Below, one piece after another: positions 359 through 9,389 of a stretch of DNA of 38,519 nucleotides. This stretch comes from Candidatus Vogelbacteria bacterium. GTDB taxonomy: Bacteria > Patescibacteriota > Minisyncoccia > Phycocordibacterales > JACRKE01. The notes beneath the pieces are model-generated. The model was not told where the DNA came from. It saw only the letters and a list, made by a program, of their open reading frames with translations, and searched no databases. The stretch's first letter is position 1, and the number at the start of each line of letters is the position of its first letter. The DNA lies in NCBI GenBank assembly GCA_016215335.1, contig JACRKE010000018.1, forward strand, positions 1 to 38,519, written 5' to 3'. The translations under genes and the position numbers were made by a program.

Positions 359-1840
359 ATGAGCAAATTCTTTCTCTACGCTAGAAAATCAACCGATGAG
401 CCGGATAGGCAGATTTTGAGTATTGAGGCGCAAATAGCTGAGTTGCGTGAGTTTGGCGAGCGAGAGCATTTGGAGATCGTGCAGGAGTTTGTGGAAAGCC
501 AGACCGCCAAAGAGCCGGGCAGACCTATCTTTAATCAAATGCTCTCGCTCATAGAGAAAGGATTTGCTCAAGGAATTTTGGCGTGGCATCCCGACAGATT
601 GGCGAGAAATAGTGTGGATGGCGGCAGAATAATTTACTTGATTGATACCACCAAAATTCGCGAGTTGAAGTTTCCAACATTTTGGTTTGATGCCACGCCG
701 CAAGGAAAATTCATGTTGAATATCGCTTTTGGGCAATCCAAATACTATATTGATAATCTTTCAGAGAATGTAAAAAGAGGGTTGCGTCAAAAAGTAAGAC
801 GAGGCGAATATCCGGGTGTGGCTCCCACCGGATACTTGAACGACAAAGTGAATCACAAAATGGTCAAAGACCCGGAACGCTATCGCCTCGTCCAAAAACT
901 TTTTGAACTGTACGCAACCCGGAAGTATTCTCTGAAAGATTTACGAAATGAAATTACTGAAATTGGCTTAGTGAGCCGGAACGGATTGCGGCTGACAGTT
1001 TCCAATATCCAGATGATACTCCGCAATCCGTTCTACTATGGCGCGTTCAAGTTCAACGGCGAGTTGTACGAGGGCAAGCATGAGCCAGCGATAGCAAAGA
1101 AACTTTTTGATAAAGTGCAGGAAGTGATGTCGGAAAAATCCCGTCCCAAGAAGCGAGGCGAGAAAACATATATTTTTCGCGGATTATTAAAATGTGGAGA
1201 GTGTGGTTGCGCCATTACCGCCGAAACGCAAAAAGGACACTCGTATTATCGCTGTACCAAAAAGAAAGAGGTTTGCTCGCAACCCTATATCCGCGAAGAA
1301 ATTCTCGCCTCGCAGATTTCCGACATACTTCAAAAAGTTTCTTTGCCGGAAGATTGGTCGGACAATATGCTCGCTCAATTAGAAACAGACGAAGCGAGCA
1401 CCGCCCAATCTGATGCTCTGTTCGCTCAAAATCTCAAAAACGAGGTTAAGGCGTGCGAGGAGAAGCTAGACACGCTTTTAGACGCACATTTGGAAAAGAC
1501 CATCACCGGCGAGGAATACACCGCTAAGAAAAACAAAATCCTCGCACGCAAGATTGATATTGAGCAAAAATTGAAAGATTTTGAGCGACAGGGCAATCGC
1601 TGGCTCGAACGGACGCGGAATCTCATTTTAGCCGCTCACCAAGCCAATTCTGTCGCTTTGGGAGATAATTTCTCTGAAAAGAAAAATTATCTTGAAAAAG
1701 TCGGCTCGAACCCCCAGCTCGCGGAGCGAGCGGTTTCGGTTTCGTTCAGAAATGACTGGCAAATCCTCGCCAAATTCAATGCCGAGCGGCGAAGCCGCGA
1801 GGCAACCTTTCAATCTTATCCTTGTTGGCTGGGAGACTAG
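359..1840 (+). CDS. Large serine recombinase (resolvase/integrase family)
   Basis: A 493-residue site-specific recombinase expected to cut and rejoin DNA through a phosphoserine link. The N-terminal resolvase domain has the YARKS motif with catalytic Ser11 and a DRLAR motif at 79-83. A Recombinase domain spans about 155-255, followed by a zinc ribbon with Cys279, Cys282, Cys299 and Cys306. Residues from about 355 to 415 look like a coiled coil. This architecture is typical of large serine integrases. No clear Shine-Dalgarno precedes the ATG. The last codons and the TAG stop (1838-1840) lie inside tRNA-Gln on the other strand, and the C-terminal 40 or so codons form the right arm of an inverted repeat. 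The C-terminal [16 protein letters not shown] segment looks native to the family, so the repeat probably derives from the gene. The tRNA-end position suggests integration there. A full element with a second attachment site is not seen. Confidence 0.93.
1708..1831 (-). repeat. Right arm of 124-bp inverted repeat
   Basis: This arm covers the 3' end of the recombinase gene and stops within the 3' end of tRNA-Gln at CAGCCA. Its partner is 138-261. It contains two short internal hairpins, GCTCGC/GCGAGC at 1717-1731 and GCGGC/GCCGC near 1788-1800. Confidence 0.9.
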
Positions 1841-1900
1841 GAATCGAACCTAGATTGATGGATTCAGAGTCCATTGTCCTACCGGTTAGACGATCTCCCA
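1826..1900 (-). tRNA. tRNA-Gln (anticodon CUG), CCA encoded
   Basis: On the minus strand the acceptor arms TGGGAGA and TCTCCCA pair perfectly. The anticodon stem ATGGA/TCCAT carries the loop CTCTGAA with anticodon CTG, and the T-arm is CTAGG-TTCGATT-CCTAG. Discriminator G and an encoded CCA follow (CCA at 1826-1828). It is the only tRNA in the window with an encoded CCA. Both neighbours run into it: the recombinase stop overlaps its 3' end by 15 nt on the opposite strand, and the homing endonuclease stop overlaps its 5' end by 22 nt on the same strand. Confidence 0.95.
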
Positions 1901-2646
1901 ATATTTTTGTCAATAACTAACACTTTCCTCTTTGGAGCCAACTTATTTTTCTTGTAATCACGGAACTTTATAATTTCAATCGCGCGAAACACCTCCTTCT
2001 TCTTCGATAACTGTACCGAAAACGTGGAGCGATGTGGATGAAATCCTAACATTTTTAAGCCCCGTTGTACATTATTCAAAAGTGAATTGTTTCGGTTGCT
2101 AAAGAATAATTTGTACGTACCTGTCGGTAAATGTATACAGTGCGACCCATCGGTTTCGATGAGACCGCGCAGGTATGCTGCTAAATATACTTTATTTGAG
2201 CTAATCCACCGTGGCAAGCAAAAGTATACTCCCTTTTTGTTCCTTGACGGTATATTTAGACGCTTAGAAATGTATTGTTCATAAATGGTAATTATAAGGC
2301 AATTACTTCTCTTAACTTTAGCGACTGTTGGTCTCTTGCCAAACACCCGAAAAATTATTCCCGCGTACCTTTTAGCAAAACCTGGGTTGTTCGAATTTGA
2401 GGCAATCCTCAACACCTCTGATCGAGGAAAGACTCCTATGTTTCCATCTCCTAGTACTGCGCCAATAAGTTCTGCTAAATCTGCATTTCGTTCGAGTGGA
2501 GCGTAAGATGGTAAAAGCCCTATACTTCTCATCTCATCACGCCAAGGTCTTGAGTTATCAAGATTGCGCGATTTCATCGTCTCAGAGATTTTACGTACCG
2601 ATACGTTGGTCTCTTTTGTAAATCCCTTGCTCCAACCTTTACTCAT
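1879..2646 (-). CDS. LAGLIDADG homing endonuclease ending inside tRNA-Gln
   Basis: A 255-residue protein with the two helices of a double-motif LAGLIDADG endonuclease: LAELIGAVLGDG at 57-68 (acidic Asp67) and LAAYLRGLIETDG at 155-167 (Asp166). Such enzymes cut one long DNA site and copy their own gene into it. The N-terminal 50 residues look like a small DNA-binding extension. The gene sits directly upstream of tRNA-Gln on the same strand and its last codons use the tRNA 5' half. The TAG stop is the TAG of the D-loop GGTAG. No intron interrupts this tRNA. No clear ribosome binding site is visible before the ATG. The cut site is unknown; the tRNA-Gln region is the obvious candidate by position. 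Confidence 0.88.
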   Translation of the reverse strand: MSKGWSKGFTKETNVSVRKISETMKSRNLDNSRPWRDEMRSIGLLPSYAPLERNADLAELIGAVLGDGNIGVFPRSEVLRIASNSNNPGFAKRYAGIIFRVFGKRPTVAKVKRSNCLIITIYEQYISKRLNIPSRNKKGVYFCLPRWISSNKVYLAAYLRGLIETDGSHCIHLPTGTYKLFFSNRNNSLLNNVQRGLKMLGFHPHRSTFSVQLSKKKEVFRAIEIIKFRDYKKNKLAPKRKVLVIDKNIGRSSNR

Positions 2647-2760
2647 GTACTAAGTATACTATTGTTCACTTAACATTGATTGTGGAAAAATAGTGTGCAA
2701 AAAATACACAATGCGGTTCCAACTGTTGCAATAATTGCGCTTGAATATAGAATTACTTGT

Positions 2761-8563: not shown

Positions 8564-8636
8564 GTCGGGGTAGCTCAGTTGGTAGAGCACAGCACTCATA
8601 AAGCTGCGGTCATGGGTCCGACTCCCATCCCCGACA
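8564..8636 (+). tRNA. tRNA-Met (anticodon CAU)
   Basis: The acceptor arms GTCGGGG and CCCCGAC pair, the D-arm is GCTC/GAGC, and the T-arm is ATGGG-TCCGACT-CCCAT. The anticodon loop CTCATAA gives CAU (8597-8599). The first pair is G-C, so this is not an initiator. It is elongator Met or the lysidine-modified Ile tRNA, which cannot be told apart by eye. One anticodon-stem pair (31-39) is an A-A mismatch. No CCA is encoded. Confidence 0.92.
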
Positions 8637-8726
8637 CAAAAATTGTCCACTTTAAAATTAGAACTATAGGATGTATAATATAGAGCATAATACTGTCACG
8701 AGGATTTAGATAATGATGATTGAAAT

Positions 8727-9389
8727 ATGCCAATTTTAAAAACATTTGATAAAAAGTTTTTTAAGAAGTGGTCGGCAGACATGTCCTACATTCTGGGGTG
8801 CATGTACGCTGACGGCAATATGGTTTTAAGTAAAAGAGGTACTCATTTTGTTGCCATATACACTAACGACTACTCACTTCTTTTGGAAATGCGTGGTAAG
8901 ATGCGGTCTGATCATAAAATTTCCACCACTGTCTCGCCTACAGGAAATTGTTATCGTATTCAAATTGGTAGCATTGAGTTATTTGACGATCTAAGCAAAC
9001 TAGGATTGGTGATAAACAAGGCAAGTAGAATGAATTTGCCAAATGTTCCAGACAAGTATTTAGGAGATTTCGTCAGGGGCTATTTTGATGGAGATGGTTG
9101 CGTGTGGACCGGAATAGCGCACAAAAACCGCAGAACTCAAACAAAGATTCTTTTAGCAGTTTTCACCAGCTGTAGCAATGCTTTTCTCCGTCAACTTAGT
9201 CAGAGACTACACTCACGTAAACTTGGATATGGCTCATTGTATAAAATTAAAAAAGTGAATTGCTCAAGATTGCAATACTCAACTCATGACGCTTTAAAAC
9301 TGTATAGAATTATGTATAATAGAGAAACTTCTCTTGAACTGACCAGGAAACGTGTTATTTTCGAGAAGTTTATGAAGTTGCGGGCGTAG
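8727..9389 (+). CDS. LAGLIDADG homing endonuclease ending inside tRNA-Asp
   Basis: A 220-residue endonuclease with two LAGLIDADG-type helices: MSYILGCMYADG at 19-30 and LGDFVRGYFDGDG at 112-124, with acidic residues at Asp29 and in the second DGDG. It is shorter than and not closely similar to the one at 1879-2646. The gene lies upstream of tRNA-Asp. Its last codons read through the first ten tRNA bases and the TAG stop is tRNA bases 8-10. The downstream tRNA carries a group I intron without an ORF, so this may be the endonuclease that spreads that intron from outside. A CTGTCACG octamer at 8693-8700, upstream of the start, equals the intron-free anticodon junction of tRNA-Asp. Confidence 0.87.
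   Translation: MPILKTFDKKFFKKWSADMSYILGCMYADGNMVLSKRGTHFVAIYTNDYSLLLEMRGKMRSDHKISTTVSPTGNCYRIQIGSIELFDDLSKLGLVINKASRMNLPNVPDKYLGDFVRGYFDGDGCVWTGIAHKNRRTQTKILLAVFTSCSNAFLRQLSQRLHSRKLGYGSLYKIKKVNCSRLQYSTHDALKLYRIMYNRETSLELTRKRVIFEKFMKLRA

Follow-up and report, generated by a model that had tools for sequence, protein, structure and literature searches.

Endonuclease genes directly 5' of tRNA genes in CPR bacteria as a probable homing cassette with a recoded tRNA

Some integrases insert at the 3' ends of tRNA genes and restore the gene. Mobile nucleases also work without an intron: in T-even phages the free-standing enzymes SegF, SegG and MobE perform intronless homing, and free-standing enzymes of T4 cut hundreds or thousands of bp away from their own gene (PMC2988022). 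Among these, T4 SegB lies between tRNA genes and has its target in the tRNA region, while the intron-encoded GIY-YIG enzyme I-TevI represses itself through a target-like copy upstream of its gene, an operator that overlaps a late promoter (PMC2988022). In CPR bacteria, insertion sequences bearing LAGLIDADG genes interrupt rRNA genes; tRNA goes unmentioned in that account (PMC11270868). Synthetic Cleave and Rescue (ClvR) elements, engineered in insects, combine a nuclease against a needed gene with a linked, recoded and resistant copy of that gene (PMC7951863). Our search of the open-access literature turned up no paper that describes endonucleases next to the 5' ends of tRNA genes in CPR bacteria, which is not proof of novelty.

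Here we describe a LAGLIDADG homing-endonuclease-like gene that runs into a tRNA-Gln gene in a 38,519-nucleotide stretch of a Candidatus Vogelbacteria genome (the window), together with its relatives. It resembles T-even intronless homing in having a stand-alone gene near its presumed target, a linked allele unlike the target allele and, as we infer, inheritance by break repair. The differences are that the presumed cut would fall in the adjacent tRNA gene, tens of bp from the endonuclease gene, a site to which the recoding of the tRNA and the relic left by the split target both point; that a complete replacement tRNA is carried; and that the enzymes are LAGLIDADG and HNH proteins of bacterial chromosomes, whereas those of phage are GIY-YIG. 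The position between or beside tRNA genes is shared with SegB, which however targets sequence between tRNA genes at a single phage locus and for which a recoded, isoacceptor-specific partner is not described (PMC2988022). As in I-TevI, a target-like sequence lies at the endonuclease promoter in 12 of the 19 loci of the closest clade (the window has none); unlike in I-TevI, the genes are not intron-encoded and the sequence would be only a putative operator. The rRNA insertions involve the same bacteria, nuclease family and class of RNA-gene targets, but they interrupt the rRNA genes, whereas the tRNA here is intact. The likeness to integrases at tRNA 3' ends is that of a mobile element exploiting a tRNA gene and bringing a replacement part, yet there is no integrase, the 5' side is used and the replacement is recoded rather than identical. 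Compared to ClvR, finally, the nuclease and the linked recoded copy would recur in a natural form, with a single protein and with tRNA genes as presumed targets.

The initial annotation had the LAGLIDADG gene entering tRNA-Gln by 22 nt and stopping at the TAG of its GGTAG, and both coordinates and codons agree with this (Table 1): the closing 22 nt of the open reading frame, stop included, are also the opening 22 nt of the tRNA, and the final codons, ATT GGG AGA TCG TCT AAC CGG TAG, end on the GGTAG of the D-loop. This is a genuine overlap of a protein gene and a tRNA gene, of which annotation should take heed.

Table 1. Coordinates of the endonuclease gene, the tRNA-Gln gene and their overlap in the window
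Feature	Position	Strand	Remarks
LAGLIDADG homing-endonuclease-like gene, 255 aa	1879..2646	(-)	core conserved to FRDY (residue 231), then 24-residue tail
Endonuclease stop codon TAG	1881-1879	(-)	
tRNA-Gln(CTG), intact	1826..1900	(-)	extra D-loop C: TCTAACCGGTAGGAC, not TCTAAYGGTAGGAC; ARAGORN 1900-1826 (-), Rfam concordant (64.4 bits)
ORF end (GRSSNR-stop) overlapping tRNA acceptor strand and D-arm	1879..1900	(-)	
ORF tail between FRDY and tRNA	1901..1953	(-)	non-conserved
TATACT, -10-like element	2653..2658	(-)	6 nt 5' of endonuclease ATG

The window protein matches the Pfam family LAGLIDADG_3 (PF14528, 3e-6) and, by sequence, I-HjeMI (4e-4). Its predicted structure, computed from a five-sequence alignment with a mean pLDDT of 68, resembles the two-repeat LAGLIDADG fold of I-DmoI, which is also the closest fold match (Foldseek 2.4e-6). 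Both catalytic acids are kept, an invariant D67 in GDGN and D166 in LIETDG, where relatives have E. We rejected an origin as a group I intron-encoded endonuclease: the tRNAs found by ARAGORN and Rfam are uninterrupted, the window has no match to an intron family, the gene stands free, and the intact tRNA follows directly on its 3' side.

The exact site of the stop has a local explanation. In Gln-clade relatives the conserved FRxY is usually followed by zero to one more residue and a stop mostly 3-11 nt 5' of the tRNA. In the window a TAA immediately follows FRDYKK in an adjacent frame (AAGAAAAATAAG), and the native stop was probably lost through a small indel. The TAG at tRNA position 20 is in frame only owing to the extra D-loop C (TCTAACCGGTAG); without it, the window frame would be open through the entire tRNA, and that frame has no stop at all in 139 of 167 tRNA-Gln genes. 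In another frame, 164 of the 167 have a TAA at position 13, a stop there thus being ordinary for an intruding reading frame. Since the pLDDT falls to ~30 from residue 231 on, the 24-residue tail outside the predicted fold is probably functionless and the exact overlap a one-off. We conclude that the overlap in the window arose by secondary loss of the stop, a local accident and not a family trait.

The adjacency of endonuclease and tRNA, in contrast to the overlap, extends through the family. We searched GTDB contigs, together with 397 genomes from the order and 380 from the phylum, by protein similarity alone; tRNA adjacency was never a criterion. All 19 Gln-clade loci with a readable 3' end (window included) lie directly 5' of tRNA-Gln(CTG). 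Immediately 5' of tRNA-Ser and tRNA-Tyr genes are more distant LAGLIDADG relatives, whose stops mostly lie inside the tRNA; a third set lies on the 3' side of tRNA-Leu(CAA). A screen of the window's own genome (~30 tRNAs, fetched loci) yielded two further frames ending in a tRNA, both endonuclease-like: another LAGLIDADG gene at tRNA-Leu(TAG) and an HNH-like gene at tRNA-Arg(TCG), the latter assigned by its Cys/His pattern and without a Pfam hit. A sister LAGLIDADG family had all of its 30 best loci at tRNA-Leu (GAG 25, TAG 5). The HNH-like family lies at Arg(TCG) in 4/4 and at Arg(TCT) in 6/6 cases, with one or two cases each at Gln, Pro and Met; its weaker matches are mostly away from tRNAs. 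The adjacency goes far beyond chance. Of the frames upstream of tRNAs, those ending inside the tRNA made up 36/98 among endonucleases versus 6/164 among other frames (Fisher 3e-12), and those ending 1-12 nt before a tRNA 36/98 versus 13/164; taken together, 72/98 endonucleases compare with 19/164 others (Fisher 1e-24, computed over all fetched loci of a non-random genome sample). Some Gln-clade members have a CTP synthase neighbour in common, so that part of these occurrences is vertical rather than due to fresh insertion. Among viral contigs, the search for carriers gave a single weak match.

Several loci vary on this arrangement. One Gln-clade endonuclease with its tRNA-Gln (L002) lies on a contig labelled Woesearchaeota that has an archaeal-looking ftsZ, which would mean inter-domain transfer or mis-binning. 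The endonucleases of L016 and L017 have an additional N-terminal ROS/MUCR-like zinc-finger region (Pfam 1e-7, run on L017). At L249 an HNH-like rather than a LAGLIDADG gene is located 5' of tRNA-Gln(CTG) and meets TAA at tRNA position 13, so this tRNA hosts two unrelated nucleases. A mirror layout, with the endonuclease 3' of tRNA-Leu(CAA) or overlapping it, occurs at L023, L024, L030, L040 and L051, and L024 has a relic of a tRNA 3' half (1409-1427) between tRNA and endonuclease. The window itself contains a second LAGLIDADG gene (8727-9389, (+)), which is related to the tRNA-Leu clade and lies 3' of tRNA-Met (8564-8637) at a distance of 89 nt.

To compare linked and unlinked tRNAs, we used a covariance model and fetched regions to gather tRNA-Gln genes in ~150 genomes belonging to the order. 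The standard D-arm, CGTCTAANGGYAGGAC, was present in 0/19 linked tRNA-Gln(CTG), 76/99 nuclease-free CTG genes and 47/47 TTG genes (Fisher 1e-10). Because the covariance model was trained on linked tRNAs and favours altered forms, the sampling bias runs against this result. The alterations are of at least six different kinds: the stems GTG:CAC, GGC:GCC, TGC:GCA and CGC:GCG, A15G with ATC:GAT, and bases inserted in the D-loop or stem, the D-arm of the window's tRNA differing from the standard by a single inserted base. Within one genus, an altered carrier and a non-carrier with the standard D-arm occur side by side in g9, g15, g64, g83 and g142; in g15 carrier and congener share the acceptor TGCCGAT and the D-arm alone differs. 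The picture in genus g57 is mixed. The D-arm is also altered in 23/99 unlinked tRNA-Gln(CTG) genes, to which drift or past escape could contribute. When the endonuclease tree was set against the D-arm classes, its backbone lacked resolution.

Upstream of the endonuclease start, 12 of the 19 loci carry a piece of the 5' half of a standard tRNA-Gln (p<=0.005, shuffling), or 13 if L004 (p = 0.055) is added. The relic lies 20-32 nt 5' of the ATG in two classes of spacing, ~20 and ~30 nt, that are one helical turn apart; it usually ends in GGTAGGA, followed by AAA and a -10 element. This element, often TGNTATAAT, stands 5-7 nt 5' of the ATG and is TATAAT or TATACT in most relatives, the TATACT of the window having the same position. 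Agreement with the standard, taken over the 12 relics, is 89% at positions 9-23 and 28% in the acceptor, and position 24 matches in none. These proportions, together with the relics of L007 and L009, where acceptor and D-arm are both still readable, indicate that the relic began as a split tRNA of which the D-arm part was retained. The window's own upstream region has no recognisable relic, and no convincing 3'-half relic was found downstream of tRNA-Gln. In the Ser and Tyr clades, where the clade's own tRNA served as query, few relics were significant (L027, L047), probably because the linked tRNA that forms the query is itself altered.

Partial tRNA-Gln copies also occur at loci without an endonuclease. 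In L133, L158, L185, L210 and L218, tRNA-Gln positions 1-~23 are followed by a hairpin (ATGAAAAGCAAACTGCTTTGCTTTTCATCC in L158) and an intact standard tRNA-Gln(CTG), an arrangement that may be a small element or a scar with the same breakpoint. L096, whose genus has a carrier, shows a 26-nt direct repeat ending at the D-loop GGTA just 5' of an intact tRNA-Gln(CTG), which resembles a break-repair scar. Tandem tRNA-Gln-like copies with an altered T-arm lie upstream of an intact tRNA-Gln in L206, L215, L228 and L231.

Judged from its sequences, the LAGLIDADG clade at Leu(GAG) is an independent repeat of the combination of altered tRNA and relic. The standard tRNA-Leu(GAG) core, GGYAGACGYRCTACCTTGAGG, is found in 0/30 linked versus 18/57 unlinked genes (Fisher 2e-4). 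A relic like AATTGGTAGACGCTAYTACCTTGAGG, corresponding to tRNA positions 14-39 and reaching the anticodon loop, stands right before the -10 element and ATG at 16/25 loci, located via a pattern anchor without a formal test. Short upstream pieces of the anticodon arm or 5' half of their own isoacceptor are present at Arg(TCG), Pro(TGG) and some Ser loci, several of them individually not significant.

We consider it likely that endonuclease and tRNA form a homing cassette, that is, a case of intronless homing that carries a recoded, cut-resistant tRNA. The proposal builds on adjacency, isoacceptor specificity, a D-arm that is altered in carriers and ordinary in most non-carriers, the relic and the -10 element, as counted in metagenome-assembled and related genomes whose counts are not fully independent. 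From these we infer cleavage, resistance, direction of transfer, co-transcription and regulation as follows. The endonuclease would recognise and cut the ordinary tRNA gene, in the Gln clade the D-arm of tRNA-Gln(CTG) from TCRTCTAATGGTAGGA onwards. Repair from the donor would insert the endonuclease gene and a complete tRNA whose recoded D-arm escapes cutting, and the left part of the split tRNA would remain upstream of the endonuclease start. With no promoter space left, transcription of the new tRNA would have to start at the promoter of the endonuclease and read through that gene, after which RNase P would free the tRNA. Since only the D-arm part of the relic is kept, at a fixed distance to the -10 element, the relic may have become an operator through which the endonuclease represses its own gene. 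The window copy departs from this scheme in that its stop has moved into the tRNA and a recognisable relic is absent.

Two other readings address the same observations. Endonucleases might merely parasitise the RNase P-repaired 5' flank of tRNAs, the D-arm changes being drift in a dispensable C34 isoacceptor. That C34 tRNAs can be redundant through wobble, and that conservation is weaker in the CTG isoacceptor than in TTG, fits such neutral docking; yet it predicts neither the complete absence of standard D-arms in carriers, nor the switching of D-arms within genera, nor upstream relics of a split standard tRNA, and tRNA-Tyr(GTA), the sole Tyr isoacceptor, is used as well. We therefore think it quite improbable. 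Alternatively, the upstream fragment could have evolved as an operator that mimics the target while a mutation of its own let the linked tRNA escape, with no insertion of a cassette. The autorepression of I-TevI is a precedent (PMC2988022), and the conservation of the D-arm part over the acceptor, together with the fixed distance to the -10 element, with two spacing classes separated by about one helical turn, speaks for an operator. However, L007 and L009 still have both the acceptor and the D-arm from the 5' half of a tRNA, and the Leu and Arg clades carry fragments of their own isoacceptor, for which reason we regard this origin as unlikely.

The initial annotation had raised a further possibility from the overlap: on a shared transcript, RNase P, in cutting at the tRNA 5' end, would remove the stop codon, so that each transcript could give either a tRNA or a complete protein, never both, and endonuclease dose might have a built-in limit. 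Its premises hold up in part. The overlap is real, and co-transcription of endonuclease and tRNA-Gln is likely, as there is no promoter room between the genes, a -10-like TATACT precedes the ATG, and no promoter-like site rises above background near the window tRNA; the endonuclease message is likely leaderless. The window's genome has an RNase P RNA candidate almost at the Rfam cut-off (95.8 bits, slightly below 100), and stops lie inside the tRNA in 14/18 Ser and 5/5 Tyr relatives, groups in which a dose limit is possible. Yet when we tabulated the stops of homologues, 16 of the 19 Gln-clade members stopped ahead of the tRNA, mostly by 3-11 nt, and because their stop lies 5' of the tRNA it survives RNase P cleavage; this is largely the outcome that the initial annotation had named as refuting its idea. 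As a family trait, both the stripping of the stop and the dose limit are thus rejected. The only Gln-clade stops inside the tRNA are those of the window and of L016 and L017 (one genus; TAA, position 13), two lineages with unlike frames and stop codons. Further, the window's tail lies beyond the predicted fold, and the search for tmRNA in the window's genome gave only tRNA cross-hits and nothing at or above the Rfam cut-off. Dose control by this route is very unlikely.

Near the window's tRNA-Gln, a large serine recombinase frame (359-1840, (+)) enters the 3' portion of this tRNA in antisense orientation, and recombinases like it terminate at the 3' side of tRNA-Gln in L012, L015 and L037. With recombinases ending at its 3' side and endonucleases at its 5' side, tRNA-Gln is exploited from both ends. 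A 124-nt inverted repeat (138-261 and 1708-1831, 98% alike) includes the tRNA-Gln 3' end and lies near the contig end; it is either a genuine element end or an assembly fold-back.

The homing cassette, if true, accounts for endonuclease genes placed exactly at tRNA 5' ends, and predicts that the standard tRNA gene is cut and the linked tRNA spared. On a wider view, where we find the balance even, CPR bacteria would harbour a natural class of cleave-and-rescue elements, in which unrelated LAGLIDADG and HNH nucleases, each dedicated to one isoacceptor, split the standard tRNA, install a recoded one, keep the left half-site as an operator and so drive tRNA evolution. Such elements would be the natural counterpart of synthetic cleave-and-rescue elements. 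A core RNA would then have been reshaped by selfish nucleases, and the D-arm and anticodon-arm sequences of several CPR tRNAs would be the marks of attack and replacement.
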